This document shows positions 1-21,447 of a DNA stretch of 64,000 nt, one piece after another. Numbering within the stretch: position 1 is the stretch's first letter; the number at the start of each line of letters is the position of its first letter. Both the position numbers and the translations under genes were made by a program. The stretch comes from Micromonospora radicis (GTDB lineage Bacteria > Actinomycetota > Actinomycetes > Mycobacteriales > Micromonosporaceae), in assembly GCF_003583405.1 (NCBI RefSeq), contig NZ_QXEC01000006.1, forward strand, positions 62,001-126,000, read 5' to 3'. The notes below the pieces were generated by a model. It saw only the letters and a list, made by a program, of their open reading frames with translations. It ran no database searches and was not told where the DNA came from.

Positions 1-760
1 CGCCCCGGTCGGCGTACGCGGTGGCGGCCTCCGGGCCGGTGACCCGGGCCGGCAGGACCGTACCGGCGGTGGCCTGCCGTTCGGTCACCCCGCTGACCCG
101 TACCCCGTGGGTCCGGAACTGCTCGCCGGTCGCGGTGAAGATGCCCCGGCAGCGCTGGCTCAACCCGCTGCCGGTGCACTCGGTCAACACCACGGTGCCG
201 GTGTTGGCGTGGCCGACGGCGAGCCAGAACGGCCCGGCGCTGACCCAGGCGAAGAAGGCCGCCGCCAGGCTCAACCCCACCAGCGTGGCCAGGCCCGACA
301 GCGGATCCGGTGGGTGGTTCGCCCGTTCCCGGCGGCGTCGCACCGGCCAGGTCGGCCGCCACCGCCAGCTGCCCCGGGCGGGATCCTCCTGCCGGACCGG
401 CGTGCCGTCCCAGTGCACCTCCTCGATCGGTGCCCAGAACGTGTCGTCGTCGTCCGGCGTACCGGCGTCGGCGGGATAGCCCCGGCGGGCCCGGCGGCCG
501 GCCGACCGGATCGGTACCCGGCTCGGTACCGCGTCGACCGGAGCCCCCGTGGTGGGCTCCACCTCGACGGTGGCCGACGGGCGGTGGTCCGCGGCGGGTT
601 GCTCCGGTGCGTCGGACGGCCCGGCCTCGGTCGCCCCGACGGGCACCGTCCGGGGATGCGGTGCCACCGCCTGGGTACGCGCGGCCGGATCCGGCCAGGT
701 GTCCGTGGGGGGCCCGTCCTCGTGCTCGCGGGCGGCTCTGCTGCCAGTCACGCGGTTCAT
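1..760 (-). CDS. Hypothetical membrane protein, N-terminal part (runs off left edge)
   Basis: Reading leftward from an ATG at 760 the frame stays open to the window edge for about 253 codons, so the C-terminus is missing. The first ~150 residues are charged and rich in Pro, Asp and Arg, with no recognisable domain and the look of a disordered cytoplasmic region. One hydrophobic segment follows at about residues 155-180, then a stretch containing two cysteines and several Thr/Gly/Val residues that could be extracytoplasmic. I do not recognise the family. It is divergent from metG, separated by about 150 bp that must carry both promoters. The frame is supported by steady high-GC codon use with G/C third positions; the function is unknown. 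Confidence 0.65.
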
Positions 761-910
761 TGGACACCGCTCGCCGGGGGACACCGGGCAGCTCAGACAG
801 CGTGTCGGCGACAAATCGGACGACCGGTCGGGCCAGGTCGGCCCGCTTCGCCGACCCGGCACTCCTATTGGTTCGCAGCCACCCGGGCCGGGTCACTAGG
901 CTTCCTGGGC

Positions 911-2713
911 ATGAGTCACGTTCTCGCGGCAGTGGCCTGGCCGTACGCCAACGGCCCCCGCCACATCGGCCACGTCTCCGGTTTCGGCGTTCCCTCCGAC
1001 GTGTTCGCCCGGTACATGCGGATGGCGGGCCACGACGTGCTCATGGTCTCCGGCACCGACGAGCACGGCACCCCGATCCAGGTGCAGGCCGACGCCGAGG
1101 GGCTCACCCCGCGCGAGCTGGCCGACCGGTACAACCGGGTGATCGTGGAGGACCTGCACGGCCTGGGCCTGTCCTACGACCTGTTCACCCGGACCACCAC
1201 CCGCAACCACTACGCGGTGGTGCAGGAGTTGTTCGAGGGGATGTACCGCAACGGGTACATCGTGCCGAAGACCACCATGGGGGCGATCTCGCCGTCCACC
1301 GGCCGGACCCTGCCCGACCGGTACATCGAGGGCACCTGCCCGATCTGCGGCTACGACAGCGCCCGCGGTGACCAGTGCGACAACTGCGGCAACCAGCTCG
1401 ACCCGATCGACCTGATCGACCCCAAGTCGAAGATCAACGGCGAGACGCCGAAGTTCGTCGAGACCGAGCACTTCTTCCTCGACCTGCCCGCCCTGGCCGA
1501 GGTGCTGCGGCAGTGGCTGGACACCCGGGAGGGCTGGCGCCCCAACGTGCTGCGGTTCTCCCGGAACCTGCTCGACGACCTCCAGCCCCGAGCCATCACC
1601 CGGGACCTGGAGTGGGGCGTACCCATCCCGCTCGACGGCTGGCGGGAGCGCACCGACAAGCGCATCTACGTGTGGTTCGACGCGGTGATCGGCTACCTCT
1701 CCGCGTCCATCGAGTGGGCCCGCCGCTCCGGCGACCCGGAGGCCTGGCGCCGGTGGTGGTCCACGGACGCGGAAGGCAAGGACTCGCAGTCCTACTACTT
1801 CATGGGCAAGGACAACATCGTCTTCCACTCGGTGATCTGGCCCGCGCTGCTCGCCGGCTACTCCGGTGAGGGCGCCCGCGACGGCGAGCCGGGCCGGCTC
1901 GGCCGGCTCAACCTGCCCACCGAGGTGGTCTCCAGCGAGTTCCTGACCATGGAGGGTCGCAAGTTCTCCTCCTCCCGCCGGGTGGTCATCTACGTCCGGG
2001 ACTTCCTCGAACGCTACGACGCCGACGCGCTGCGGTACTTCATCGCGGTGGCCGGTCCGGAGAGCAACGACACCGACTTCACCTGGGCCGAGTTCCTCCG
2101 CCGCAACAACGACGAACTGGTCGCCGGCTGGGGGAACCTGGTCAACCGGTCGATCTCGATGGCGGCGAAGAACTTCGGCGAGATCCCCGCCGTCGACCCG
2201 GCCGGGCTCACCGAAGCCGACGAGGCGCTGCTCGCGGTCGCCCGCGCCGGTTTCACCACGGTCGGTGACCTGATCGCCCGGCACCGGCAGAAGCAGGCCA
2301 TCGGTGAGGCGATGCGGGTGGTCGCCGAGGCCAACAAGTATCTCTCCGAGCAGGCGCCCTGGAAGCTCAAGGACGCGGCCGACAAGCCCCGGATGGGCAC
2401 CATCCTGCACGTCGCCCTCCAGGTGGTCAGCGACGCCAACACGCTGCTCACCCCGTTCCTGCCGCACTCCGCGCAGCAGGTCCACCAGCTGCTCGGCGGC
2501 ACCGGCGTACACGCCCCGATGCCGGTGATCGAGGAGGTCGAGGACCTCGACGGCGGTCCCGGGTACCCGGTGCTGACCGGCGACTACACGCAGGGCGCCC
2601 GCTGGGAGTCCGTACCGCTGCCGGTCGGCCGGCCGCTCGCGGCGCCCAAGCCGGTGTTCCGCAAGCTCGACCCGTCGATCGTCGACGAGGAACTGGCCCG
2701 GCTCGGCGGTTGA
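911..2713 (+). CDS. metG: Methionyl-tRNA synthetase
   Basis: Charges tRNA-Met with methionine in the cytoplasm. The 600-residue protein opens with a class I catalytic core: the ATP-binding HIGH motif is literal at about residues 18-21, and the KMSKS loop appears as the variant KFSSS near residue 349. The knuckle at about residues 142-160 has CPIC and CDNC pairs, the zinc-binding insert of this enzyme. The C-terminal helical anticodon-binding domain is present, but no tRNA-binding EMAP-like extension follows. ATG 911 is chosen because it gives the conserved [21 protein letters not shown] start; the open frame continues far upstream but without family similarity. A 30-bp duplication and hairpin array cover the stop codon. 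Confidence 0.97.
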
Positions 2714-2810
2714 GCCGAGGAACTGGCCCGGCTCGGCGGTTGAGCCGAGGAAACCGGACGGCTCGGGCGATCGAGCCGTGGCGAACCGCCCCGGCTCGGG
2801 AGATCGAGCC
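2687..2810 (+). repeat. Four tandem hairpin repeats covering the metG stop codon
   Basis: The 30 bp at 2687-2716, which include the last metG codons and the TGA stop, are repeated exactly at 2717-2746. Two more diverged units follow. Each unit carries the same short inverted repeat, GGCTC...GAGCC, at 2699-2716, 2729-2746, 2760-2777 and 2793-2810. The third and fourth lengthen the stem to GGCTCG/CGAGCC. The array runs directly into the terminator-like hairpin at 2825. It probably arose by slippage and may act as a stacked terminator or mRNA 3' end; that role is inference. Confidence 0.85.
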
Positions 2811-2824
2811 GGGGCGGACCGCGT

Positions 2825-2859
2825 GGCGGGCGCGACCCCGGACCGGGGTCGCGCCCGCC
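2825..2859. terminator. Strong bidirectional terminator-like hairpin between metG and the convergent hydrolase
   Basis: A perfect 16-bp inverted repeat (2825-2840 with 2844-2859) separated by only three bases (GAC). It lies between two convergent genes, so a GC-rich intrinsic or Rho-assisted terminator serving both is the natural reading. There is no T-tract, as is common for actinobacterial terminators. Confidence 0.75.
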
Positions 2860-2908
2860 GTCGGCACCGGCCCGGCGGCGACGAACCGACGCCGCCGGGG
2901 CCGTCGAA

Positions 2909-3760
2909 TCAGGCCCGCGCCATCGACGGCGAACCGACGAACTCCATGATCGCCCGGTTCACCTCGTTGCCGTTGGTCCACGGAATGCCGTGCGGCGCAC
3001 CCTTGATGGTGACCAGTCGGCTGTCCGAGAGCATCGGCTGCAGCCGCTGACCCGTCTTCGGGTACGGCAGCACCATGTCCTTGTCGCCCTGCACGATCAG
3101 CACCGGCACGTCGATCCGCGACACGTCGGCCCGGAAGTCGGTGCCCCAGGCGTCGACCGAGTTCAGGGTGGCGATCGCCGAGGCCCGCGCGCCGATCTCC
3201 CAGTGCGCCCGGTACGCCTCCTCGCTGACCAGCTTGCCCTTGTTCTCGGCGTAGTTGAAGAAGTTGTCGCAGAACTGGGTGAGGAAGGCGAACCGGTCCT
3301 GCACGATGGCCTGCTTGAACCCGTCGAAGACGCTCACCTCCACGCCCTCCGGGTTGTCCGAGGCCTGCCGCAGGTACGGCGCCAGCGGCGCCAGCAGCAC
3401 CGCCCGGTCCACCCGCTCCGAGCCGTACGCGCCCAGGTAACGGGTCACCTCACCGGTGCCCATCGAGTGACCGACCAGGATCGCGTTGCGCAGGTCCAGT
3501 TCGGTCATCAGCACGTCGAGGTCGGCGGCGAAGGTGTCGTAGTCGTACCCGAACGCCGGCTGTGCCGAGTTGCCGTAACCACGCCGGTCGTACGTGATCA
3601 CCCGGTATCCCGCCGCGAGCAGCGGCCCGGTCTGCTTCTCCCAGGTCGCCCCGTTGAACGGGAACCCGTGGATCAGCACGATCGGCTGCCCGGAACCGTG
3701 GTCCTCGTAGTACAGGTCGATGGGCGCGGAGTTTTCCGTCCCGACGGTGATGAAGGGCAT
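2909..3760 (-). CDS. Alpha/beta hydrolase, non-heme haloperoxidase (perhydrolase) type
   Basis: About 283 residues forming a single alpha/beta-hydrolase domain. The oxyanion-hole motif HGFPFNG is near residue 31, the nucleophile elbow GHSMG is at about 97-101 (Ser99), the acid Asp226 lies in QGDKD, and the catalytic His256 in APHGIPWTN. The GHSMGTGEVTRY stretch and the APHG.PWT ending are characteristic of the non-heme haloperoxidase/arylesterase group, which hydrolyse small esters and can form peracids in vitro. ATG 3760 is preferred over the upstream ATG at 3781 because AGGAG lies 5 bases before it. No signal peptide is seen, so it is cytoplasmic. The physiological substrate is unknown. It is convergent with metG. 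Confidence 0.85.
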   Translation of the reverse strand: MPFITVGTENSAPIDLYYEDHGSGQPIVLIHGFPFNGATWEKQTGPLLAAGYRVITYDRRGYGNSAQPAFGYDYDTFAADLDVLMTELDLRNAILVGHSMGTGEVTRYLGAYGSERVDRAVLLAPLAPYLRQASDNPEGVEVSVFDGFKQAIVQDRFAFLTQFCDNFFNYAENKGKLVSEEAYRAHWEIGARASAIATLNSVDAWGTDFRADVSRIDVPVLIVQGDKDMVLPYPKTGQRLQPMLSDSRLVTIKGAPHGIPWTNGNEVNRAIMEFVGSPSMARA

Positions 3761-3838
3761 TTCCACTCCTACGGTCGACATCGCTGTCCGCCCCGCATTC
3801 CCGCGCCACCGACCGATATGCGCACCGCCCACCCGTGG

Positions 3839-5083
3839 TCAGAGGACGTACGGGTGATCCACTACCTGGTCGTCGGTCACCTCACCACCCGGCGCCCAGG
3901 TCTCGTAGACGCCCCGTTCGTGGCACTGCGCCCCGGTGACGGCCACCGCGTCCGGATCCGGCCGGCGCAGCCGCAACCGCAGCCAACCCGCCTCCTCCCG
4001 CAGCACCAGGCAGGGCACCCCACGCCAGGCCGCCAGGCGCAGCCGCCGGCAGACCCCGTCGACCGGGTACCGGGCGGCCCGGGTCAACGCCAGCACCCGG
4101 AACCCGCCGGGCAGGTCCGCCACCGCCTCGTACTCCCCACCGGCGTACGTGCCGATCAGCCGGGTCGACCGGGGCGCCTCGCCGGTCGGCACGTACTCCT
4201 GGTCCGGCGACAGGCCGGGCACCGCGGCGAGCAGGTGCCGCCACTGCGGGCCCACCATCCGCAACCAGCCCCGCTGCTCGGCCTGGTAGGCGTAGAGCAC
4301 CACCTCGACCCCCTCGGCCGGGTACGCCAGCAGGGTGGCGTTCGCCGGCATCGGCAGGTCGGCGAAGTCCCGGGTGACGAACTCCGGGATCAACTGGCTG
4401 CTGCTGGGCGTGAATCCGGTGCCCAGCACGGCCGGGCCGAGCCGGTCCCGCGCACCCAACGCGGACAACCCCCGGTACGCCGTCCCGGCCGGTACGTCGT
4501 AGTCGCCCGGGTCGACGGCGCGCCACCGCAGCGCGTACGTGACATCCGCGCCGTCGCGGCCACCCCCGCCGTCGGTACGCAGCAGCGCGGTCGCCGCCGG
4601 GGTACGCAGGTGCGCCACGTCGTGCTCCCGGTAGCAGAACCCGTGCGGCAGCCAGCCCCGCACGTGACCGGCGAGCTGCCGAGCCGAGAGGATCTTCATC
4701 ATCCGGGTGCCCCGGCGCACGGTCGCCGACGCGCGTACCGCCGTGACCAGCGGATCGTCCGCCGCACTCGGCTGCTGACCGAGCCGGTGCACCTCCGCCC
4801 AGCCCCGCTGGCGGTGCAACGGCACCAGCAGCGGGGCCTCCGGCTCCTCCACCGCCGCCGCCCCGTGCACGGCGGTGACCTCGGTGACGTGCACGAAACG
4901 CCGCCACGGCAGCGCCGAGTTCGGTCGCGGCGCCCACTCGAAACCGGGCACCTCGTCGGCGCTGAACAACTCGTACGCCGCGCCGCGGGCGATCTCCTCC
5001 GCCGGGTAGACCGCACCGCCGTACGCCACCCGCAGGCCGGTGCGCTCCTGCGCCGTGCCCTCGGCCCGTCCGGTGATGCTCAC
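3839..5083 (-). CDS. Conserved-looking protein of unknown function (about 414 aa)
   Basis: I do not recognise this family. The frame has consistent G/C third positions from about 5100 to the stop at 3839. The product is soluble, without signal peptide or membrane segment, rich in Arg, Ala and Val, and about equally spaced in Tyr and Trp. The region around ARGAAYELFSADEVPGFEW reads like a surface-interaction or substrate-recognition fold rather than an enzyme with visible catalytic motifs. The frame is open upstream through the tatD start on the other strand; GTG 5083 is the best start that avoids overlap with tatD, but no strong ribosome site decides it. Divergent from tatD. Confidence 0.6.
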   Translation of the reverse strand: MSITGRAEGTAQERTGLRVAYGGAVYPAEEIARGAAYELFSADEVPGFEWAPRPNSALPWRRFVHVTEVTAVHGAAAVEEPEAPLLVPLHRQRGWAEVHRLGQQPSAADDPLVTAVRASATVRRGTRMMKILSARQLAGHVRGWLPHGFCYREHDVAHLRTPAATALLRTDGGGGRDGADVTYALRWRAVDPGDYDVPAGTAYRGLSALGARDRLGPAVLGTGFTPSSSQLIPEFVTRDFADLPMPANATLLAYPAEGVEVVLYAYQAEQRGWLRMVGPQWRHLLAAVPGLSPDQEYVPTGEAPRSTRLIGTYAGGEYEAVADLPGGFRVLALTRAARYPVDGVCRRLRLAAWRGVPCLVLREEAGWLRLRLRRPDPDAVAVTGAQCHERGVYETWAPGGEVTDDQVVDHPYVL

Positions 5084-6061: not shown

Positions 6062-6110
6062 CGCCCATCCGTCGCGGCCTGCCCACCGGGTCGAGCAGGT
6101 GCCTGGTGTC

Positions 6111-7163
6111 TCAGCCGCGGCGGGCGCGCGGGGTGCGCGCGGTGGCGGGTGCGGCCGGGGCGGGTGCGCCGGCCGCGTCGAGGCGACGTGCCGCCCACGG
6201 CGTGATCACGTAGCCCCGTTTGACGGTGAGCAGCTGCACCCCGGCGGTCCACGCCTGGATGCCCTCGATGCCGGCGAGGGTCTTGGTGGTGAACTCGAAG
6301 ACGTCGGCGTGGCTGGGCAGGATCACCTCGCACATCAGCGACTCCTGCCCGAGGGTGGCCGCCACGTACCGCACCCCGCGCAGCGCCGCCAGCTCGCGCG
6401 CCACCGCGTCCAGCCGGGCCGGCGCCACCGACAACCAGAACAGGATCTCCGCCTCGAAGCCGAGCGCCGCCGCCGGCACCAGCGTGATCACCTGTACGCA
6501 GCCTGCCTGGTACAGCGCCTCGAAGCGGCGGCGTACCGTGCTCTCGCTGACCCCCAGACCCAGGGCGACGGCCTGGAAACTGGCCCGCCCGTCGGCCCGC
6601 AGCGCGGCCACGATCCGCTCGTCCACCTCGTCGAGGTGGTTCGCCGAGCAGTCGTGCACCGGGGGCGGCCCGGCGAGCTGCGCGGCACCGCCGAGCAGGT
6701 GCTGGCTCCACTCGTGGGTGGCCTTGTAGGTGTGCAGTTCCAGGTCGGCGACGCTGCCCTGCACCCCGGGAATGGTCTGCAACCCGTCCAGCAGCACCCC
6801 GTGCATGCTGGTGCCCTTGGGCACCAGCACCTCGGCCACCAGGTCGTAGACCCCGGTGACCAGGGCGACGAAACGCACCTCGGGCATCGCGGCGAGCGCC
6901 TGCGCGGCCGGCAGTTGGCTGCCCGGGGTACAGCGGATCCGGACGATCAGCAGGTCCGCCGGACCGCCGCCGCCGGGCTGCGGCACCGCCGCGACCTTCA
7001 CCATCTCGTCGGCCAGCAGCTGCTGGGCGCGGCGCGCCACGGTGGTCACCGACGTGCCGGTGAGCTGGGCGATGTCCGTCCAACTCGCGCGGCCGTTGAC
7101 CTGGAGGGCGGCGACGATGCGCCGGTCGATGGGATCGAGATCGTACATGTCGATGGGCATCAT
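6111..7163 (-). CDS. Double-unit Lrp/AsnC-family transcriptional regulator
   Basis: 350 residues holding two complete Lrp/AsnC units in tandem. Unit one has a winged helix (LDPIDRRIVAALQVNGRASW, residues ~7-26, recognition helix with TSVTTVARR) and an AsnC effector domain. Unit two repeats this with LDEVDERIVAALRADGRASF and SESTVRRRFEAL, again followed by an effector domain. Typical Lrp proteins have one unit of ~150 residues and form dimers and octamers; this chain is a built-in dimer. Such proteins sense amino acids or small metabolites. Its ATG forms an ATGA overlap with the stop of the upstream hydrolase, so it is translated as the last gene of the peptide operon and is its obvious candidate regulator. 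Confidence 0.9.
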   Translation of the reverse strand: MMPIDMYDLDPIDRRIVAALQVNGRASWTDIAQLTGTSVTTVARRAQQLLADEMVKVAAVPQPGGGGPADLLIVRIRCTPGSQLPAAQALAAMPEVRFVALVTGVYDLVAEVLVPKGTSMHGVLLDGLQTIPGVQGSVADLELHTYKATHEWSQHLLGGAAQLAGPPPVHDCSANHLDEVDERIVAALRADGRASFQAVALGLGVSESTVRRRFEALYQAGCVQVITLVPAAALGFEAEILFWLSVAPARLDAVARELAALRGVRYVAATLGQESLMCEVILPSHADVFEFTTKTLAGIEGIQAWTAGVQLLTVKRGYVITPWAARRLDAAGAPAPAAPATARTPRARRG

Positions 7164-8008
7164 GCCGCAGTGGTCGGTAGTTCCGCCAGGAACGCGCGCA
7201 CCACCGACTGGAACCTTTCCGCCTCCTCCAGCTGCGGCGAGTGTCCGGAGTGCTCGAAGACCACCAGCCGGGCGTCCGGGACCAGCGACGCGATGGTCTC
7301 GCTGCACACCACCGGGGTGATCCAGTCGTGTCGGCCGACGGTCACCAGGGTCGGGCAGCCGATCCGGGGCAGCAGCGGCTTGATGTCGTAGTTCGGCTGG
7401 TTGACGGCGAAGGCGAAGTTGTGCGTGGCGTACCGGTACGGGGTGTTCTCCACCCGCTGCCGGACCTTCGCCCAGTCGAGGTCGTGGTCGTAGAGGGGCA
7501 GGATCTCCGCCCAGCAGTCCTTCAGGTCGGCGTCGTCGCGCACCGTGCCGGACATGATCCGGTCGAGCTTCGCCCGGTCGATCTCCACCCGGGACGACGC
7601 CAGCGCGTTGCGCAGCGCCAACTCCTGGTTGACGTTGTCGGCGGCGGTGTCCCGCAGCACCAGGCCGGCGACCCGGTCCGGGTAGCGCAGCGCGTACTCC
7701 ATGGCGATGAAGCCGCCGTACGACCCGCCGGCCATGACGATCTTCTCCGCGCCCGCCCAGGCACGCAGGCCGTCCACGTCGGCCGCCCACTGCTCGTGGG
7801 TGAAGGGCGGGTTGCCCTCGCTGGCGCCGGAGCCCCGGGCGTCGAAGACGATCACCCGGTACGCGTCGGCGAACGGCGCGAACGCCGCGCGCGGCTCGGC
7901 CAGCGAGCCCAGCCCGGGAGCACCATGATGGACGATCATCGTGGGTCGGTCGGGGGCGTCGCCGAGCACCTCGACGTTCAGCCGGTTTCCGTTGATCTCC
8001 ACGAACAT
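7160..8008 (-). CDS. Alpha/beta hydrolase of the prolyl iminopeptidase (S33) type
   Basis: 282 residues. HHGAPGLGS supplies the oxyanion hole near residue 28; the nucleophile elbow is GGSYGG with Ser96, the form typical of S33 proline iminopeptidases. Asp228 (VGRHDWITP) and His256 (HSGHSPQLEE) complete the triad. Family members remove N-terminal proline from peptides or hydrolyse related amides and esters. It is cytoplasmic. It lies between the M24 hydrolase (stop 8014, 5 bp upstream) and the Lrp regulator (4-bp overlap), within an operon of peptide transport and amide hydrolases, so a peptidase or amidase role is likely. The exact substrate cannot be read from the sequence. Confidence 0.85.
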   Translation of the reverse strand: MFVEINGNRLNVEVLGDAPDRPTMIVHHGAPGLGSLAEPRAAFAPFADAYRVIVFDARGSGASEGNPPFTHEQWAADVDGLRAWAGAEKIVMAGGSYGGFIAMEYALRYPDRVAGLVLRDTAADNVNQELALRNALASSRVEIDRAKLDRIMSGTVRDDADLKDCWAEILPLYDHDLDWAKVRQRVENTPYRYATHNFAFAVNQPNYDIKPLLPRIGCPTLVTVGRHDWITPVVCSETIASLVPDARLVVFEHSGHSPQLEEAERFQSVVRAFLAELPTTAA

Positions 8009-8013
8009 GTCAG

Positions 8014-9174
8014 TCAGGCTCCGATCACGATGTCGGCGAGGTCACGGGGGTATCCGGTGAGCCGGCGCGGGCCGTCCTCGGTGACCAGTACGGTGTCCGA
8101 GATGCGGTAGCCGGCGTGGCCGGGGAGGTAGATGCCGGGCTCGCTGGAGAGGACCATGCCGGGCTCCAGCACCGTGTCGTCGCCGTCGGCGACCCACGGC
8201 GGCTCGTGGAAGCCCAGCCCGATGCCGTGCCCCTGCCGGTGTCGCAGGAACTGTGCCAGCCCGGCCCGGCGGATCACGTCCAGGCAGGTGCGGTTCGCCT
8301 CCGCGCAACGGACGCCGGGACGCAGCGCCTCGGTGCCCACCTGCTGCGCCTGGCGCACCACCGAGTAGTACCGGCGCTGCTCGGCGGTGGGCTCGCCGAG
8401 CAGGAACGTCCGTTCGCTCTCCACGAACCGGCCGCCGACCGCACAGCCCAGCGAGAGCATGAACGGCTCACCCCGGCGCAGCCGGTCGCCACCGGGCAGC
8501 CGGTGCGGCTGGGCCGAGTTGGGGCCGCCGTAGACCAGCCCACCGGTGAGCATCGGCACGACCACCACGTCCTCGTGCTCCGCGTACATCATCGCCGCGC
8601 CGAACCGGGTCACCTGGGCGGCGAGTTCGGTCTCGGTGGGCAGGTCGTCGGCGCCGGTGGCGGCGGCGACCAGCCGGGCGCCCTCGGCGAGCATCGCGTC
8701 GGCGATCCGGGCCGCCTCGGTGTGCAGCGCGATCTCCTCCGGCGTCTTGCGCAGCCGCAGCCGCCCGACCAGCTCGCAGGTCACCGTCTCGGCACCGGCG
8801 AAGGCGGCGGCGACCGCGGCCACCCGACCGGTCGAGGTGGACGCCGCATGCCCGATCCGCCGGATTCCGCCCACGGCGTCGGCCAGCAGCGCGAACGGGC
8901 TGCGCTCGCCGGGAAACTCCGGGTACACCACCAGGCGGGCGGCGGCCCGCTGGTCGGCCGCGTACTCCCGCTCCAGGTCCGGCACGAGCAGCAGCACCTC
9001 GCCGTCGCGCGGCACCAGCGCCACCACCGGGCGTTCGTTGGGGAAGTGCGCGAACCCGGTCAGGTACGCCACGTCCAGCGGGTCGTCGAGCAGCAGCGCG
9101 TCGAGCCCGGCCTCGGCCAGGCCGGCGCGGACCCGGTCGTGCAGCGCGGGGTAGAAGGTGGGTGGCAGTCGCAC
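8014..9174 (-). CDS. M24-fold hydrolase with creatinase-like (non-metal) active site
   Basis: 386 residues with the creatinase N-terminal domain and a pita-bread catalytic domain. The catalytic His region is clear (GHGIGLGFHE, ~residues 312-321) and SSEPG (~341) matches the EPG glutamate. However, the two aspartates expected in metallo-M24 enzymes are replaced: the D.G. segment reads LSLGC (~240) and the next site reads ESERTF. The last glutamate position reads RISDTV. LSL.C followed by ERT is what creatine amidinohydrolase has, an M24 member that works without metal. The gene may therefore cleave a non-peptide C-N bond. GTG 9174 is 7 bp from the permease stop, with GAGGTG before it. Confidence 0.8.
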   Translation of the reverse strand: MRLPPTFYPALHDRVRAGLAEAGLDALLLDDPLDVAYLTGFAHFPNERPVVALVPRDGEVLLLVPDLEREYAADQRAAARLVVYPEFPGERSPFALLADAVGGIRRIGHAASTSTGRVAAVAAAFAGAETVTCELVGRLRLRKTPEEIALHTEAARIADAMLAEGARLVAAATGADDLPTETELAAQVTRFGAAMMYAEHEDVVVVPMLTGGLVYGGPNSAQPHRLPGGDRLRRGEPFMLSLGCAVGGRFVESERTFLLGEPTAEQRRYYSVVRQAQQVGTEALRPGVRCAEANRTCLDVIRRAGLAQFLRHRQGHGIGLGFHEPPWVADGDDTVLEPGMVLSSEPGIYLPGHAGYRISDTVLVTEDGPRRLTGYPRDLADIVIGA

Positions 9175-9181
9175 CGGTCGG

Positions 9182-10087
9182 TCACCTCGTCCGGGGGTTG
9201 CGGGCGTCGTTGTACGCCACGGCGAGCAGGGTGGTGGCCACCACCAGCAGCAGGATGGCCAGGGAGGGGAAGAGCGTGGTCCACCACGCCGTGGCCAGCG
9301 ATCCGGAACGCTGGGCCTGGTGCAGGATCGCTCCCCACGACCAGCTGTTCGGGTCACCCAGGCCGAGGAAGGAGAGCCCGGCCTCGGAGAGCACCGCCCT
9401 GGAGGTGGTCAGCACCACCGACACCGCGATCACCGGCGCCACCCCGGGCAGGACGTGCTTGCGAATGATCCACAGGTGCGAGCCGCCGATCACCCGGGCC
9501 GCCGAGACGTACGGCATGGGTACCACGGCCAGCCCCTGCGAACGCACCACCCGGGCCACCTCCGGCCAGCTGAACAGTGCGATCACCACGACCAGGGTCG
9601 ACACGCTCGGCCCGGCCAGCGCGGCGACCAGGATCATCAGCGGCAGCACCGGCAGCGACAGGGAGAGGTCGACGATCACACCGAGCAGGGCGTCGGCGTA
9701 CCGGAAGTAGGCTGCGGCGACGCCGACGAGTACGCCGATCACGATCGCCAGCACGCTGGCCGCCAGGCCCACCACGATGCTGACCCGGGTGCCCCAGACC
9801 ACCTGGGCGAAGACGTCCCGCCCCAGGTCGTCGGTGCCGAACCAGTGGGCGGCGCTGGGGCCGGCGAGCACGTCCTCGCCGTACCCGCTGGGGTAGTCGG
9901 CGATCAGGCCGGCGCCGGCGGCGACCAGGATCAGCAGGATCAGCACGGCGGCGCTGGCCAGGCCGAGCGGATTGCGCCGGAACGCCTGCCAGGTCTGCTG
10001 GGCCACCGACTCCGACGGCGGGAGCGCGGCGGCGGTCGTGCCGGCGGTGGGTGTGCTGCCGGCGGCGGAGGTCCGGGAGATGGTCAT
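9182..10087 (-). CDS. Peptide-type ABC transporter permease (DppC-like)
   Basis: 301 residues. An N-terminal cytoplasmic stretch is followed by a first membrane helix (ASAAVLILLILVAAGAGLIA), an extracellular segment ending in HWFGTDDLGRDVFAQVVWG, then five membrane helices. The GTDDLGRD motif is the signature of the OppC/DppC permease family. The cytoplasmic coupling loop reads YVSAARVIGGSHLWIIRKHVLPG, the EAA loop that docks the ATPases. It pairs with the DppB-like protein, whose stop overlaps its ATG by four bases. The two ATPases of this importer are encoded divergently at 14182-16252. Confidence 0.92.
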   Translation of the reverse strand: MTISRTSAAGSTPTAGTTAAALPPSESVAQQTWQAFRRNPLGLASAAVLILLILVAAGAGLIADYPSGYGEDVLAGPSAAHWFGTDDLGRDVFAQVVWGTRVSIVVGLAASVLAIVIGVLVGVAAAYFRYADALLGVIVDLSLSLPVLPLMILVAALAGPSVSTLVVVIALFSWPEVARVVRSQGLAVVPMPYVSAARVIGGSHLWIIRKHVLPGVAPVIAVSVVLTTSRAVLSEAGLSFLGLGDPNSWSWGAILHQAQRSGSLATAWWTTLFPSLAILLLVVATTLLAVAYNDARNPRTR

Positions 10088-11049
10088 GCGGTCCGTACCC
10101 TCGGGTCGAGCAGGCCGTACGCGACGTCGGTGAGCAGGTTCGCCACGATCACCGCGAAGGCCAGCATCAGGAAGGCGCCCTGGAGCACCGGGAAGTCGAG
10201 CTGGCCGACCGCCTCGAAGATGCTCCGGCCGACGCCCGGGTAGGCGTAGATGGACTCGGTCAGCACCGCCCCGCCGACCAGGAAGCCCAGTTGCAGGCCG
10301 ACCAGGGTGGTGGTGGGCAGCAGCGCGTTGCGCAGCGCGTGCCGCCAGACCACCCGGCGTTGCGGCATGCCCTTGGCCCGGGCCAGCGTGCAGTAGTCCT
10401 CGCCGAGCGCGTCGATGAGCGTGCTGCGCAGCGTCAGCACGTACGAGCCGAGCTGCACCAGCACCAGCGACAGGCAGGGCAGGATCAGGTGTACGGCGAT
10501 GCTGCCCCAGGCCGCCGCCCCGGTCGCGTCGCCGTCCATCGCGCCGCCGATGGGCAGCAGCCCGAGCTGTACGCCGAAGACGTACAACAGGAGGACGCCG
10601 ATGCTCGGCACGAACAGCGACTGGCCGGTGATCCCACCGACCTGGATGAACCGGTCCAGGCCGCTCTTGGCGTGGGTGGCGGCGAGCACGCCGAGCGGGA
10701 TGCCGAGCGCGACGGTCACCGCGAGGGCCGAGCCGGCCAGCAGCAGCGTCCAGGGCAGCCGTTCCAGCAGGATGTCCAGCACCGGCTGGTTCTGCCGGAA
10801 CGACACCCCGAGGTTGCCCTGCGCGAGCTGGGTCAGGTACTCCCAGTACTGCACGCCGAGCGAGCGGTCCAGGCCGTAGTCGGCGAGCAGCTTGGCCCGC
10901 AGTTCCTCGGTCATCCCGGGGTCGGCGATGGCCAGCGCGGGGTCACCGGGCAGTAGGCGCAGCAGGAAGAAGGTGACCGTGACCGCGAACCACATGGTGA
11001 GCAGGCCGCGCAGTACGCGGTGCAGGAGAAAGCGGATGCCGGCGGGCAC
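10084..11049 (-). CDS. Peptide-type ABC transporter permease (DppB-like)
   Basis: 321 residues beginning with a membrane helix (LTMWFAVTVTFFLLRLLPGDPA), where LPGDPA is the OppB/DppB hallmark, followed by five further helices. The EAA loop reads DYCTLARAKGMPQRRVVWRHALRNA, typical of the family. GTG 11049 is chosen because GGGAGG lies upstream at suitable spacing and the family start is matched. It is cotranscribed with the binding protein upstream (a 104-bp gap holding a GC-rich hairpin) and DppC downstream (ATGA overlap). Confidence 0.92.
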   Translation of the reverse strand: MPAGIRFLLHRVLRGLLTMWFAVTVTFFLLRLLPGDPALAIADPGMTEELRAKLLADYGLDRSLGVQYWEYLTQLAQGNLGVSFRQNQPVLDILLERLPWTLLLAGSALAVTVALGIPLGVLAATHAKSGLDRFIQVGGITGQSLFVPSIGVLLLYVFGVQLGLLPIGGAMDGDATGAAAWGSIAVHLILPCLSLVLVQLGSYVLTLRSTLIDALGEDYCTLARAKGMPQRRVVWRHALRNALLPTTTLVGLQLGFLVGGAVLTESIYAYPGVGRSIFEAVGQLDFPVLQGAFLMLAFAVIVANLLTDVAYGLLDPRVRTA

Positions 11050-11105
11050 GGGTGCCTCCCTCGGGTGCTTCGGTGCCGGTGGTCGGATCGGTCGGGAAGT
11101 TTGGC

Positions 11106-11147
11106 GAGGGGCCCCTGCTCTGCCGCAGGCGTCGGCCGGGGCCCCTC
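11106..11147 (-). promoter_or_regulatory. Hairpin between the binding-protein gene and the dppB-like gene
   Basis: The arms GAGGGGCCCC (11106-11115) and GGGGCCCCTC (11138-11147) form a perfect 10-bp stem around a GC-rich loop. It sits 7 bp beyond the binding-protein stop. Such structures commonly protect the upstream binding-protein mRNA and lower expression of the downstream permeases, as in the E. coli malE-malF interval. This role is inferred here. Confidence 0.55.
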
Positions 11148-11153
11148 CTCCGC

Positions 11154-12755
11154 TCAGTCGGTGGTGGCCTGGGCCAGTGACTGCGGGTTGACGATGGAGA
11201 GCAACTCGCTGGGCTGGACCAGGAAGTTCGACCACTTGGCCGAGTGCGCGAAGGTGAACTCCTCGACGTAGAGCACGTTGTCGTACACCTGGTCGCTGAT
11301 GATCTTCGCGGCGGCCTGGATGGCGGTCTTCTGCGACGGCTGGTCCAGGTGGGACCGGGACTCGTCGATCAGCTTGTCCAGCGCCGGGTCGCAGGCGTTG
11401 GCGTAGTTGATGAAGCCGTCGCACTTGAAGGCCAGGGTCAGGTTGGCCGGCGGGTTCTCCATGATCGCCCAGGAGCCGGCGTAGATGTCGAAGTCCCGCT
11501 CCTTGGTCTTGGCCAGGTAGGTGTTGCGCTCCAGGCCCTCCAGCTTGATGTCGATGCCGGCCTCCTTGCTGGAGTCGCGCACCAGCTGGGCCCACTTGGC
11601 GATGTTCGGGTCGGCCTGGTCGTAGATCATCCGTAGGCTCAGCCCGTCGAAGAGCCCGTCACCGTTGCCGTCGGTGAACCCCGCCCCGGTCAGCAGCTGC
11701 TTCGCCCGCGCCGGGTCGTACGCGTACTCGGTCGCCGAGGGGTCCTGCCACTGCTTGAGGGTGGGAGTGAGCACCGACGAGTTCGACGAGACCGCGGAAC
11801 CCTGCAACGCCACCCGGCGGATCGCCTCGTAGTCCACCGCGGCGGCCAGCGCCTGCCGTACCTCCAGCTTGTCCAGTGGCTTGCGGGCCAGGTTGTACTG
11901 CATGTGCGCCCAGCCCAGCGAGGGGACCTTCACCAGCTTGAGCTTGCTGTCGCCCTCCAGCGTCTTGGCCAGTGCCGGGGGCAGCGCGTTGGCGATCAGG
12001 TCGATCTCGCCGTTGCGCAGCGCCAACGCCTCGGTGTTGACGTCCGGGAAGACCCGGAACACCAGCTCGGCGGTCTTCGGGCCGCCGTCGACCAGCGGGT
12101 AGTTCGCCACCCGCTTGAGCACGTACCGCTGGCCGCGCTCCACGGACGTCAGCTGGTACGGGCCGGCGGAGACCCAGTCCGCGTCGTTGGCGAACTCGGC
12201 GACCTTGCCGACCTTGCTGAACACGTGCTCGGGGACGATCGGCATCCAGAAGCCGACGTTCTCCAGGAACGTGCCGTCGGGCTCGGAGAGGGTGAACTCC
12301 ACCTCGGTCGGGGAGAGCGCGGTGGCCTCCTGGAACGCCGGGATCAGGCCGGCGACGACGCCGATCTTCTCCGCGGCGATGGCCTTGATGGTGAAGACCA
12401 CGTCGTCGGCGGTGACCTTCTCCCCGTCGGTCCAGGTGAAGTCGTCGCGCAGGGTCACCTTCGCGCTCTTGCCGTCCGGCGCGTACGCCCACTCGGTGCC
12501 CAGGTACGGGGTGCGGGTGCCGTCGAGGCCCATACCCATCAGGCGCGGGTACATCAGGTTGGTGACCCAGGTGTCGGTGCGGCTGTTGCCGACCAGCGGG
12601 TTGTAGTTGATCACGTCGGCGGTGGTGCCGATGGTCAACCGTTCGGCGCTGCCGGCGCCGCCACCGGCGTCCGGGTCACTGGGTGAGCAGGCGGTGACCA
12701 GCCCTATCGAGAGCAGCCCCACCGCCATGGCGAGGGTACGTGTTGTGCGGCGCAT
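11154..12755 (-). CDS. ABC transporter substrate-binding lipoprotein, family 5 (peptide/nickel type)
   Basis: 533 residues. The lipoprotein signal peptide starts MRRTTRTLAMAVGLL and ends in the lipobox LVTAC (Cys23). A family-5 extracellular binding domain fills the rest, with the usual TWTDGEKVTADDVVF motif near residue 110. Length and fold match DppA/OppA-like receptors that bind peptides, though some family members bind nickel, opines or oligosaccharides. ATG 12755 overlaps the dipeptidase stop by one base (TGATG), so translation is coupled. It is the receptor for the DppB/DppC/DppD/DppF-like importer encoded on both sides of the divergent promoter region. Confidence 0.92.
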   Translation of the reverse strand: MRRTTRTLAMAVGLLSIGLVTACSPSDPDAGGGAGSAERLTIGTTADVINYNPLVGNSRTDTWVTNLMYPRLMGMGLDGTRTPYLGTEWAYAPDGKSAKVTLRDDFTWTDGEKVTADDVVFTIKAIAAEKIGVVAGLIPAFQEATALSPTEVEFTLSEPDGTFLENVGFWMPIVPEHVFSKVGKVAEFANDADWVSAGPYQLTSVERGQRYVLKRVANYPLVDGGPKTAELVFRVFPDVNTEALALRNGEIDLIANALPPALAKTLEGDSKLKLVKVPSLGWAHMQYNLARKPLDKLEVRQALAAAVDYEAIRRVALQGSAVSSNSSVLTPTLKQWQDPSATEYAYDPARAKQLLTGAGFTDGNGDGLFDGLSLRMIYDQADPNIAKWAQLVRDSSKEAGIDIKLEGLERNTYLAKTKERDFDIYAGSWAIMENPPANLTLAFKCDGFINYANACDPALDKLIDESRSHLDQPSQKTAIQAAAKIISDQVYDNVLYVEEFTFAHSAKWSNFLVQPSELLSIVNPQSLAQATTD

Positions 12756-13963
12756 CAGTGCCAGACCTCCTCTAGAACGCGCAGGATGTTGCCCCCCAGG
12801 ACCTTGCTGATCTCGTCGTCGGAGTAGTCGTGGCCGACCAGCCAGGCGACGATGTTCCAGTAGCACTCGGCCGGGTTCTCCAGGCCGTCCACGTAGGGCA
12901 CCCGGGGGTGCTCGACGTGCCCGTGTGCCTCGGCGATGGACAGGTGCGCCGCGAAGGTGTCGTGCAGCCCCACGTGGTCACCGAAGAGGGTGTCCGGGCC
13001 GAACGCCACGTGGTCGATGCCGACAAGCTCGACGCAGTGGACGAAGTGGTCCATCACCGACTCCAGGCTGTGCCGGGGGTGGGCGGCCGAGAGGGTGGTG
13101 TGCGGTGCCGCTTCCAGGCCGATCACGCCGCCGCGCTCGGCGCAGGCGACGATCACGTCGTCGGGCTTCATCCGGTTGGTCGGCCAGACCGTCCGCGAGC
13201 CGGCGTGGGTGATGAAGACGGGCTTCTCCGATCGGGCGACCACCTCGGCCGAGGTGCGGTCGCCGGAGTGGGAGATGTCGATGGCGATGCCGAGCCGGTT
13301 CATCCGGCGGACGGCCTTCTCGCCGAAGTAGGTCAGCCCGCCGTCGTTGCGTTCCTTGAGGCCGCTGCCGAGGGTGTTGGCCTCGCTGTAGGCGATGCCC
13401 ATTTGCCGGACGCCGAAGCCGTAGAGCATGTCCAGCCGGTCCAGCTCGTTCTCGATCATGGTGGCGGCCTCGGTGGCGAGCACCAGACCCATCCGCCCGG
13501 TCTCGTGCGCGTACCGGATGTCGGCCAGCTTCTCCACCTTGACCAGGAAGTCCTGGTGGGCCACGTCGGAGAGGCGCATCCCCAGGTCGGCGATGACGTC
13601 GGTCCACTTCCAGCCCATCTGGCTGGTCACGCAGCAGGTGCCGTCCATCAGGTTGTCGAAGACGGCGGTCATGCCGGAGCGGGCCAGCCCGGCGTAGCCG
13701 GTGTGGTGGCGGGCGGTGCGGTTGTAGTCGACGGTCTCCCGGATGTTCTCCGGGAAGACCGAGGGGTGGTCGTGCAGGGAGATCACGATCTCGTTGGTGA
13801 GCAGCCGGGTGACCCGCTCGCGCTGCTCGTCGGAGAGCGGGACGCCCTGGTACGCGGGTACCCGGCCGATCTCCGGCACCAGCTTGAACTCCCGGTAGTC
13901 GGTGCCGGCCTCCAGGTAGCTGTAGGACGTGTACCCGGTGTAACGCGACGCGGGGTCGAGCAC
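12755..13963 (-). CDS. M19 membrane-dipeptidase-family amidohydrolase
   Basis: 402 residues, without a signal peptide. Renal-dipeptidase metal ligands are mostly present: Glu165 (ATEAA), His232 (DISHSGD), His253 (ITHAGS) and Asp324 (GIDHVAFGPD). The first ligand motif, usually H-x-D, reads H64-D65-H66, a change at a metal-binding position. M19 enzymes cleave L-D or L-L dipeptides and some lactams or acyl amino acids. The GTG start at 13963 has AAGGGAG 7 bases upstream. As first gene of the minus-strand arm it is coupled to the binding-protein gene. A cytoplasmic enzyme that processes the imported compound is the natural reading; the substrate is unknown. Confidence 0.85.
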   Translation of the reverse strand: MLDPASRYTGYTSYSYLEAGTDYREFKLVPEIGRVPAYQGVPLSDEQRERVTRLLTNEIVISLHDHPSVFPENIRETVDYNRTARHHTGYAGLARSGMTAVFDNLMDGTCCVTSQMGWKWTDVIADLGMRLSDVAHQDFLVKVEKLADIRYAHETGRMGLVLATEAATMIENELDRLDMLYGFGVRQMGIAYSEANTLGSGLKERNDGGLTYFGEKAVRRMNRLGIAIDISHSGDRTSAEVVARSEKPVFITHAGSRTVWPTNRMKPDDVIVACAERGGVIGLEAAPHTTLSAAHPRHSLESVMDHFVHCVELVGIDHVAFGPDTLFGDHVGLHDTFAAHLSIAEAHGHVEHPRVPYVDGLENPAECYWNIVAWLVGHDYSDDEISKVLGGNILRVLEEVWH

Positions 13964-14136
13964 GCGTTTCTCCCTTCGTGTCGGTCGGCCGTCCCGGGGG
14001 TGGTGGCGGGAGAATCCGTCATCCGTGGCTGGGGGCGGTGCCGAATCTCGGCGATGTGGAACGAGAGATTGCCAGGATCAGTCGCGGCATGTCAATATGC
14101 AGAACAACTTCGGCGTGAATGCCGTGGATCGCGCTA

Positions 14137-14169
14137 GAAATCGTTACGTGCTGAAATCAGCCGGAAATC
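14137..14169. promoter_or_regulatory. Divergent control region with three GAAATC direct repeats
   Basis: The 218 bp between the divergent arms (13964-14181) are clearly more AT-rich than the genes around them. GAAATC occurs three times on the plus strand, at 14137, 14153 and 14164, just upstream of the ATPase start; the middle copy is part of the octamer TGAAATCA that also builds the dispersed palindromes at 18236 and 44991. The region is the obvious target for the double Lrp regulator at 6111. Binding there is inference. Confidence 0.45.
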
Positions 14170-14181
14170 AGGGGGCCGGGG

Positions 14182-15225
14182 ATGGCTCGACGGTCAACAG
14201 GCACCACCGCCGACGCGGCGACCGGGCACCAGCCGCCCGGAGACGCGCTGCGGGTACGCGGGCTCGACGTCACCTTCACCACCCGACGCGGCGACCTGCC
14301 CGCCGTCCGCGGCGTCGACCTCGACATCGCCGCCGGCGAGGTGCTGGTGCTGCTCGGGGAGTCCGGCTCCGGCAAGTCGGTGACCGCGCGGTCCGTGATG
14401 GGCCTGCTCGACGGCCCCGGCGTACGCCTCGACGCCGCCGAGATCCGGGTGGCCGGTCACGACATCGTGGGCGGCCGTCCCGACGACGTACGCCGACTGC
14501 GTGGCAGCACCATGTCCCTGGTCTTCCAGGACGCGCTCTCCGCGCTCAACCCGGTGCTCTCCATCGGCGACCAACTCGGCGAGGTCTACCGGCTGCACCG
14601 GGGCGCCTCCCGCAGACAGGCCCGGGCCGAGGCGGTGGAACTGCTCCGGCTGGTCGGCATCCCCGCCCCCGACCGCCGGGTACGCGACTTCCCGCACCAG
14701 TTCTCCGGCGGCATGCGGCAACGCATCCTGATCGCCATGGCCGTCGCCCTCGGCCCCCGGCTGCTGATCGCCGACGAACCCACCACCGCCCTCGACGTGA
14801 CCGTCCAGGCGCAGATCCTCGACCTCATCGACCGGCTCCGCGCCGAACTCGGCATGGGCGTCCTGCTGATCACCCACGATCTCGGCGTCGCCGCCGAACT
14901 CGCCGACCGGGTGGCCGTCATGTACGCCGGGCGGATCGTCGAGACCGGCACGGTCGCCGAGATCCTCGACGCGCCGGCCCACCCGTACACCGCCGCCCTG
15001 CTGCGTTCCGTACCCGACCTCGCCGACCCGGGGGAACCGCTGCGGCCGATCCCCGGCAGCCCGCCCAACCTGCTGGCCCTGCCCACCGGCTGTGCCTTCC
15101 ACCCGCGTTGCCCCCGCGCCGACGACACCTGCCGGGCCACCCGGCCGCCCCGCCGCCCGCTGGCACGCGCCGACCGGACCGCCGCCTGCCACCACGCCGA
15201 GGAGGGCGTCGATGCCACCGTCTGA
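14182..15225 (+). CDS. Peptide-type ABC transporter ATPase (DppD-like)
   Basis: 347 residues. Walker A is GESGSGKS near residue 60, the signature FSGGMRQRI near 175, and Walker [13 protein letters not shown] near 195. The C-terminal oligopeptide-transporter extension contains a Cys-rich segment ([14 protein letters not shown]), which in this subfamily binds an iron-sulfur cluster. It energises the importer whose receptor and permeases lie on the opposite strand at 9182-12755. ATG 14182 has only a G-rich stretch as ribosome site. It overlaps the next ATPase gene by 14 bp. Confidence 0.93.
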
Positions 15226-16252
15226 GTCACCCACCGCGCCCACGGCCCCGGCGACCCGCCCCGCCGGGGAGCCACTGCTGGTCGCCACCGGGCTCCGCAA
15301 GACCTATCGGGCCGGCCGCGGCCTGGGCCGCAGCGTGCGCGTACACGCCGTCGACGGTGTCGACCTCAGCGTGGCCGCCGGGGAGACCCTCGGCGTGGTC
15401 GGCGAGTCCGGCTGCGGCAAGTCCACCCTGGCCCGGATGCTCGTCGGGCTGGAACGTCCCGACGGCGGCAGCGTCCGCTACGCGGGAGACGACGTCGCCA
15501 CCGCCCGGGGAACCCGCCGCCGCGACCTGCGTCGGGCCGTGCAGATGGTCTTCCAGGACCCGCTCACCTCGCTCAACCCGCGGCTGACCGTGCTCGACCT
15601 GGTGGCCGAGCCACTCGACGTGCACAGACTCACCCGGGGGGCCGCCGCCCGCCGCGACCGGGTCGCCGAACTGCTCGACCTGGTCGGCCTCGCACCCGAC
15701 ATGATGCAGCGTTTCCCGCACGAGTTCTCCGGCGGCCAGCGGCAACGCATCGGCATCGCCCGCGCCCTGGCCACCGAGCCCCGCGTCGTGGTCTGCGACG
15801 AACCGGTCTCCGCCCTCGACGTCTCCGTGCAGGCCCAGGTGGTCAACCTGCTCGCCGAACTCCAGCGCCGGCTCGGGCTCACCCTGGTCTTCATCGCCCA
15901 CGACCTCGGCGTGGTCCGGCACGTGTCGCACCGGGTCGCGGTCATGTACCTCGGTCGACTGGCCGAACTCGGCCCCGCCGCCACGGTGTACCAGCAGCCC
16001 GCCCACCCGTACACCCGGGCGTTGCTCGGTTCGGTGCCGGTGCGGCACCCCGCCGAACGTGGCCGCCAACGGGTCACCCTCGCCGGTGACCCGCCCAGCC
16101 CGGTCGCCCCACCACCCGGCTGCCGGTTCCACACCCGCTGCCCGGTCGCCCAGGACGTCTGCCGGCACAGCGAACCACCCACCGCCACCGACCCCACCGG
16201 TCGCCTCGCCACCTGCCACTTCGCCGAGGGCGCGCGGGCGGTCCCCGGCTGA
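15212..16252 (+). CDS. Peptide-type ABC transporter ATPase (DppF-like)
   Basis: 346 residues from ATG 15212, with GGAGG 8 bases before it and the start lying inside the end of the DppD-like gene. Walker [10 protein letters not shown], signature FSGGQRQRI and Walker [14 protein letters not shown] are intact. The C-terminus again carries the [14 protein letters not shown] cysteine segment. As second ATPase it completes a two-ATPase, two-permease, one-receptor importer. The open frame extends upstream of 15212 but only overlaps the previous gene. Next to it, 18 bp downstream, ksgA begins and may share its transcript. Confidence 0.93.
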
Positions 16253-16270
16253 CCCGTACGCTGTCACGTT

Positions 16271-20404: not shown

Positions 20405-20860
20405 ATGGCCCACACCCCCGTCAACCACCCCGCACGGCCGATCTACCGGGCGATCGGCGGGCTGATCGGTCTGTACCTGGTGGTCTTCGGTCTGCTGGGC
20501 TTCTTCGCCAGCAGCGGCGGCCCCTTCTTCGGCCAGGGCGACACCCAGGCGCTGGGACAGGGCACCAACCTCGGCTTCTCCCTGTTCAGCATCGTGATCG
20601 GCGCCATCGTGCTGGCCGGTACCGCGATCGGTCGCAACCTCGACGTGCTGATCAACCAGTGGAGCGCGTACCTGATCATGGTGGTCAGCCTGGCCGGGCT
20701 CGCCTTCCTCCGCACCGAGGCCAACATCTTCAACTTCAGCGTCAGCACGGTCGTCGTACTCATGCTCCTCAGCCTGATGCTGCTGATGGCCGGCATGTAC
20801 GGCAAGGTCGGCAGCGACGACGAGCACGAGGCGTGGCAGAAGGCCCGACTCGTACTCTGA
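20405..20860 (+). CDS. Four-helix membrane protein, DUF4383-like (paralogue 1)
   Basis: 151 residues with an N-terminal NHPARPIYR motif and four hydrophobic segments at about residues 16-36, 58-76, 82-100 and 108-128. It ends in a short acidic tail. It looks like the DUF4383 family of actinobacterial membrane proteins, none with a known role to my knowledge. The neighbouring gene at 20968 begins with the same motif and has the same topology, so the pair are tandem paralogues. The ATG follows GGAGACACCGAC. Confidence 0.8.
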   Translation: MAHTPVNHPARPIYRAIGGLIGLYLVVFGLLGFFASSGGPFFGQGDTQALGQGTNLGFSLFSIVIGAIVLAGTAIGRNLDVLINQWSAYLIMVVSLAGLAFLRTEANIFNFSVSTVVVLMLLSLMLLMAGMYGKVGSDDEHEAWQKARLVL

Positions 20861-20967
20861 GTTTCGTCCGTTTCCGGTCGGGGTGGTTGCATCCCGGGTT
20901 CGACCGGCACGAGTACCACCCATGGGCGACAATTGTCCGGATTGTTGTCTTCGCGTGGAGGACGCAC

Positions 20968-21447
20968 GTGCCGCACTTTCCGGTCAACCACCCCGCCCGG
21001 CCGATCTACCGGGTGCTCTCCGGCCTCATCGGGCTGTACATCCTGGTCTTCGGCGTCTGGGGCACCGCACTGACCTGGGGCGGCCCGCTGTTCGGCCGGG
21101 ACGGCAACTGGGCCCTCGGACTCCGGACCAACCTGGCCTTCTCGCTCGTCTCCGTGATCTTCGGAATCGTGCTCATCATCGGCGCGTCCCGACGCGGCAA
21201 CCTCGGCCACTACATGAACCTGACCGCCGGCGTCGTCTTCCTGGTCACCAGCATCCTGATGATGTCGGTGCTGCAAACCCCCGCCAACTTCCTGAACTTC
21301 TCCATGTCGACGGTGGTCGTGTCGATGCTCTTCGGCCTGGTGCTACTCGGCACCGGCCTGTACGACCGGGTCGGCCCGCCCGAACACGCCGAGGCCGAAC
21401 GCAACCGCCGCTACCACCCCGTCGCCGAGATCCACCGCCACCACTGA
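20968..21447 (+). CDS. Four-helix membrane protein, DUF4383-like (paralogue 2)
   Basis: 159 residues from GTG 20968, with TGGAGGA five bases upstream. It opens NHPARPIYRVLSGLIGLYILVFG against NHPARPIYRAIGGLIGLYLVVFG-type sequence in its neighbour, then four membrane segments and a His-rich tail (RYHPVAEIHRHH) the neighbour lacks. The shared core and adjacent placement indicate duplication followed by divergence of loops and tails. Function unknown. Confidence 0.8.
   Translation: MPHFPVNHPARPIYRVLSGLIGLYILVFGVWGTALTWGGPLFGRDGNWALGLRTNLAFSLVSVIFGIVLIIGASRRGNLGHYMNLTAGVVFLVTSILMMSVLQTPANFLNFSMSTVVVSMLFGLVLLGTGLYDRVGPPEHAEAERNRRYHPVAEIHRHH

Follow-up and report, generated by a model that had tools for sequence, protein, structure and literature searches.

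What does a bacterium import and degrade with a dipeptide-type transporter whose genes are divided between two divergent arms and linked to hydrolases of the M24, M19 and alpha/beta hydrolase (ABH) families? The question is raised by a locus of Micromonospora radicis, at positions 6111 to 16252 of the 64,000-nucleotide stretch analysed here (the window), and the answer we favor, with a probability of about 0.5, is a self-contained catabolic cassette dedicated to one class of small peptide-like amides, in which the N-terminus is either blocked or part of a ring. Cassettes of this kind recur in many bacteria. This one probably imports a small peptide-like compound that is chemically blocked and degrades it, and the active sites of its M24 and M19 hydrolases, as read from their sequences, differ from those of textbook relatives. 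Its seven minus-strand genes and two divergent ATPase genes are all open and lie in the order given by an earlier reading of the same DNA (the original prediction):

6111..7163, minus strand: double Lrp/AsnC regulator with two modules, each of a helix-turn-helix (HTH) and a ligand domain (Pfam); start codon ATG, overlapping the last bases of ABH
7160..8008, minus strand: ABH with the likely triad Ser96-Asp228-His256 (Pfam, NCBIfam, solved relatives)
8014..9174, minus strand: M24 hydrolase with the altered metal site Ser241/Glu252/His316/Glu345/Ser359 and a creatinase-type Glu254 (ERT); GTG start
9182..10087, minus strand: DppC-type permease (BPD_transp_1)
10084..11049, minus strand: DppB-type permease (BPD_transp_1)
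11154..12755, minus strand: substrate-binding protein (SBP) lipoprotein (SBP_bac_5) with Met at the amine-binding Asp of DppA/OppA; its ATG, inferred from the open frame, overlaps the M19 stop
12755..13963, minus strand: M19 dipeptidase-like amidohydrolase, HxH variant (H64, H66); an N-terminal stretch of ~50 residues precedes the barrel
14066..14095, minus strand: minus-arm element resembling a promoter: TTGACA (14095-14090), 18 bases, CAATCT (14071-14066)
14182..15225, plus strand: DppD-type ATPase (ABC_tran and oligo_HPY)
15212..16252, plus strand: DppF-type ATPase (ABC_tran and oligo_HPY); ATG at 15212 after GAGGAGG

The minus arm runs from 13963 down to 6111 as M19 (402 aa), SBP lipoprotein, the two permeases, M24 (386 aa), ABH (282 aa) and the double Lrp, with end-to-start overlaps between several of these genes, and the plus-strand ATPase pair begins 218 bases from it. 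Pfam bears out both the importer of dipeptide type split across divergent arms (BPD_transp_1 in both permeases, ABC_tran and oligo_HPY in both ATPases, SBP_bac_5 with 257 bits) and the double Lrp regulator, in which two AsnC HTH and two AsnC ligand domains are present in a single chain. The cassette shares the five-part architecture and the SBP fold with E. coli DppABCDF, but carries its ATPases on the divergent arm and lacks the Asp at DppA position 436. Elements resembling TTGACA/CAATCT are seen by eye, uncounted, in many related divergent spacers, and inspection of the window's spacer for an Lrp operator palindrome found just short, weak inverted repeats.

The M24 protein matches Pfam M24 (163 bits) and Creatinase_N (61.1 bits against a cut-off of 22), and shares its fold both with creatinase, including the Creatinase_N domain, and with Xaa-Pro dipeptidase (prolidase, M24B), its best match in sequence. 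Alignments to solved prolidases reveal that three of the five metal ligands are altered, as predicted (Asp to Ser241, Asp to Glu252 and Glu to Ser359), with His316 and Glu345 kept, such that the Asp, Asp, His, Glu, Glu of prolidase and aminopeptidase P reads Ser, Glu, His, Glu, Ser and the two-metal site is lost; nowhere in the alignments does a complete set of ligands reappear at displaced positions. Among 96 M24 proteins (that of the window, 87 taken one per locus, and 8 from Terrarubrum and alphaproteobacterial side variants), positions 224, 241, 252, 254, 316, 323, 324, 327, 345 and 357 are invariant, and position 359 has Ser in 89 proteins and Ala in the other 7. Neorhizobium galegae VafX2 is excluded from this count; its annotation gives both M24 genes as split frames (L104, 12401-14762).

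The predicted resemblance to creatinase (PDB identifiers 1chm, 7yto, 1kp0) is real, as its chains read LSLNC (or LSLNT) ... ALERT and GYREHD, and the LSL.C and ERT motifs are matched by the M24 protein, which is 25% identical to creatinase and has a hairpin two residues shorter between the two motifs. The match of Ser241 depends on gap placement, for MAFFT without a gap in the hairpin puts Asn, not Ser, at this column. Creatinase His232, Glu262 and Glu358, which we take to be functional residues, have His224, Glu254 and Glu345 as counterparts, whereas Arg335 and His376, presumably functional likewise, are replaced by Trp327 and Ser359, and Glu252 stands where creatinase has Ala. Plain creatine is disfavored as the substrate by Trp327 and Ser359. 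Three further M24 proteins (L136, L139, L142) have the ERT glutamate with other changes at metal positions and form additional unassigned branches near creatinase, and one from Ketogulonicigenium (L143), whose gene is flanked by those for a hydantoinase B and an SBP, has all five ligand letters.

Ectoine hydrolase (EutD/DoeA) is also an M24 protein without the peptidase ligands, but its motif is different (E, P, S, Y, M and T at columns 241, 252, 254, 316, 345 and 359) and its clade is separate; the window's M24 scores 55.6 bits against the TIGR02993 cut-off of 613, and ectoine is disfavored by this score and by the EutD motif. One article describes ectoine consumers as confined to Proteobacteria (PMC5924519). 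Of the original prediction that one specific unusual compound is degraded, the part that stands is a dedicated and conserved set for uptake and hydrolysis of what is probably not a plain dipeptide, and scores and motifs speak against ectoine and creatine as that compound. A guanidino or proline-containing amide is no more than a candidate.

The M19 protein belongs to PF01244 (213.1 bits against a cut-off of 26) and matches no NCBIfam model at E <= 0.001. Alignment bears out the predicted H64-D65-H66 in place of HxD on the first strand, with Glu165, His232, His253, Arg264 and Asp324 kept, and HxH is found in 86 of 86 M19 proteins of the cassettes, as well as in eight examined from Deinococcus, Paenarthrobacter and haloarchaea. 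The HxH and the N-terminal stretch of about 50 residues set it apart from the M19 membrane dipeptidases such as human DPEP1, GliJ and Sco3058. A structure of the D38H mutant of GliJ is available (PDB identifier 5lx4), and the matches listed in the literature searched make no mention of D38H or its effect on GliJ activity. The third hydrolase, predicted to be prolyl-iminopeptidase-like, matches Abhydrolase_1 (106 bits) and has the triad positions in 87 of 87 proteins, but scores 94.5 bits against the TIGR01250 cut-off of 167.65, is tied with enol-lactonase models and has an esterase as its best solved relative. This identity is therefore weak, and the description of the set as three C-N hydrolases is safe for M24 and M19 but not for the ABH.

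A separate line of evidence comes from the SBP. Mature Asp408 of E. coli DppA (precursor 436) is, we assume, the residue that holds the free amine of a dipeptide. It is Asp in DppA and OppA but Met in the window, and among 85 homologues the column is Met in 69, Ile in 10 and Phe in 6, with Asp in none; one SBP (L077, 340 aa) fell below the length limit we set for this count and one 3-kb locus (L069) has no SBP. The Asp is missing also from the SBPs of Terrarubrum, the Neorhizobium and Devosia side variant, and two Deinococcus. Therefore the ligand, judged from these residues, probably has no free amine at the anchor place, and the missing anchor independently supports a substrate other than a plain dipeptide. 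The column of mature DppA Arg355, which presumably binds the carboxylate, has Asp in the window and Ser in 45, Asp in 35 and Glu in 5 of the 85, in a gapped stretch where OppA has Asn.

Co-occurrence of the genes elsewhere, which had been set beforehand as a check, proved widespread. Relatives were drawn from genome sets, GTDB contigs and PLSDB, and the named loci of the contig scan are the best 80 of 143, so that diverged versions of the cassette are under-sampled. By tblastn with identity thresholds that we set, M24 is present in all 80, ABH, SBP and each permease in 79, the D-type ATPase in 77, the F-type in 74, M19 in 73 and Lrp in 72, and the six-gene core is whole in 72. Of the seven loci that lack M19, one is a 3-kb contig and six are alphaproteobacterial; five of these six, all from Devosia (L073, L070, L071, L080, L091, ~1-4400), have HyuB-HyuA-M20 beside the cassette, an arrangement seen nowhere else among the 80. 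No close M19 is encoded elsewhere in the six alphaproteobacterial genomes (best identity 37%), and HyuB-HyuA-M20 is possibly a non-homologous replacement of M19.

A cassette-type M24 is found in 3 of 297 genomes of the Devosia order at E <= 1e-80; two of these three carry a side variant, and the third has it as a second copy. The side variant (L106 10110-22960; L121, L122, L123) encodes a GntR-like regulator, SBP, M24, permeases, a EutE-like deacylase, ATPases and a prolidase-like amidohydrolase, with an aldo/keto-reductase-like gene nearby and a DUF885-like gene in three of four; the deacylase recalls the ectoine set, but that of Neorhizobium, at 86 bits, falls below the cut-off of 402.7. N. 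galegae plasmids carry this variant with two M24 genes. Two Deinococcus plasmids have M19, ABH and M24 in a row with an importer, and these are 57, 45 and 38% identical to the window's in KNUC1210; in QL22 the M19 and ABH are 60 and 50% identical and the M24 42% over 168 residues. HxH M19 genes also occur on three further Deinococcus plasmids, accompanied by genes for an M28 peptidase and an importer; on two haloarchaeal plasmids, where genes for M28, M20 or a racemase lie nearby; and in Paenarthrobacter next to an Lrp gene in a neighborhood of dihydropyrimidinase, M20 hydrolase and an NCS1 transporter.

A cassette for N-blocked or cyclic peptide-like amides accounts most simply for the changed SBP, the modified active sites of M24 and M19, and the close linkage of the genes. 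The assignment of steps to enzymes is our inference. The SBP lipoprotein would capture the compound in a pocket without a free-amine anchor, and DppBCDF would import it. M24, lacking the usual two-metal center, may then cut a C-N bond in the manner of creatinase, with His224 as acid/base and with a polar or cationic group held by Glu254 and Glu345. The ABH, a putative serine hydrolase, could take off an acyl, ester or lactone part, and M19, as a presumed two-metal HxH-type amidohydrolase, would split the remaining dipeptide with its carboxylate held by Arg264. The released amino acids might signal to the double Lrp, the candidate controller of the divergent promoters, and in Devosia a HyuAB-type amidase with an M20 peptidase may replace the M19 step. 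Tentatively, at somewhat less than even odds, the cassette M24 could be a further metal-independent lineage beside creatinase and ectoine hydrolase, within a wider uncharacterised ERT branch of M24, which together with HxH M19 in Actinomycetota and Deinococcota, and HyuAB and M20 in Devosia, would form a module for N-capped or cyclic peptides closed to ordinary peptidases.

Several points weigh against the blocked-amide cassette. Its substrate, activity and metal content are proposals drawn from sequence, its SBP argument assumes particular residue roles in E. coli DppA, and other, non-peptide members of the SBP family also lack the Asp. The HyuAB-M20 neighborhood is limited to Devosia among the 80 loci, and the ERT forks of the M24 tree are moderately supported, with long branches and a midpoint root. 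The overall fold of the predicted M24 model is nearer creatinase, but as this model is thin (8 similar sequences, a mean predicted local distance difference test (pLDDT) score of 75.1 and three active-site stretches below 50), the nearness is one of overall fold only. Sequence comparison puts prolidases first among the solved relatives (E 8e-44, creatinase reaching 5e-26), which favors ordinary scavenging of dipeptides (e.g. L-D or proline dipeptides) by drifted enzymes that are still peptidases, as does the placement of M24 and M19 in peptidase families and of M28 and M20 genes near M19 relatives on Deinococcus and haloarchaeal plasmids. We consider this unlikely, given that drift would not leave identical substitutions fixed in all 96 M24 (Ser or Ala at the last position) and all 86 M19 proteins, and that the amine anchor is missing from 85 of 85 SBPs.

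Catalysis by M24 may be metal-free, although a single metal could also be bound by Glu252, His316 and Glu345; the original prediction of a non-metal hydrolase thus stands for the three altered ligands and not for the metal-free state. A one-metal hydrolase, in which Ser241 and Ser359 replace ligands of the second metal, agrees with the invariance of that trio in 96 of 96 proteins and with Glu252 replacing Asp at an actual ligand position where creatinase has Ala, but is rendered doubtful by the equally invariant creatinase-type Glu254 and by the overall fold. That M24 is a pseudoenzyme, a scaffold or sensor beside a working ABH and M19, would fit the loss of three ligands, but is very improbable since His224, Glu254, His316, His323 and Glu345 are invariant, as in an active site, and M24 is retained in alphaproteobacterial loci without M19. 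A creatine-, guanidino- or ureido-specific pathway, in which M24 acts on a capped amino acid or peptide and liberates urea or a carbamoyl group, draws on the creatinase-type Glu254, His224 and Arg48, on the HyuAB and M20 genes by Devosia cassettes and the dihydropyrimidinase, M20 and NCS1 genes near Paenarthrobacter M19, and on the two plasmid-borne M24 genes of N. galegae, a symbiont of a plant that makes the guanidine galegine. However, the Trp and Ser at the positions of creatinase Arg335 and His376, hydantoin-type genes in only 5 of the 80 named loci, all Devosia, and a host link of one genus make it quite unlikely, and such a substrate is a lead only.

Within the genus the cassette is an accessory block. 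It lies between tatD and ksgA (window 6062-16270), and M24 is present at E <= 1e-60 in 7 of 61 genomes: its own, 5 of the 36 other genus members and 1 of 24 from the rest of the order. Of 41 genus genomes searched, 30 yielded the tatD-ksgA joint and the remaining 11 lie outside this count; tatD adjoins ksgA with fewer than 200 bases between them in 29 of 29 other loci, as against a ~10 kb block in the window's genome. The same joint holds the cassette in Micromonospora sp. HM5-17, Plantactinospora endophytica and P. mayteni, where KsgA is 86-88% and the cassette proteins 81-93% identical to the window's; this fits either long residence with loss from most of the genus or an exchange that took in the flanks. 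The two block joints have no obvious repeat by eye, and no search for mobile-element ends was made. A second, rearranged cassette on another contig of the genome (L016, C10:16001-36000; M19-SBP-B-C-M24-ABH-D-F-M19), with an M24 56% identical to the window's and an adjacent GntR-like regulator gene, is found in this arrangement also in Micromonospora rosaria. Outside the cassette, two adjacent open reading frames (window 20405-21447) have the stretch PVNHPARPIYR in common and are probably a tandem duplication.

We recognised no publication describing this gene set in the literature searched. The active-site letters put in doubt the database labels 'Xaa-Pro peptidase' and 'membrane dipeptidase' for such proteins. 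If our reading is true, many soil and plant-associated bacteria would have in common an unnamed pathway for modified peptides, and the changes to the metal sites of M24 and M19 would be open to study in a natural enzyme pair.

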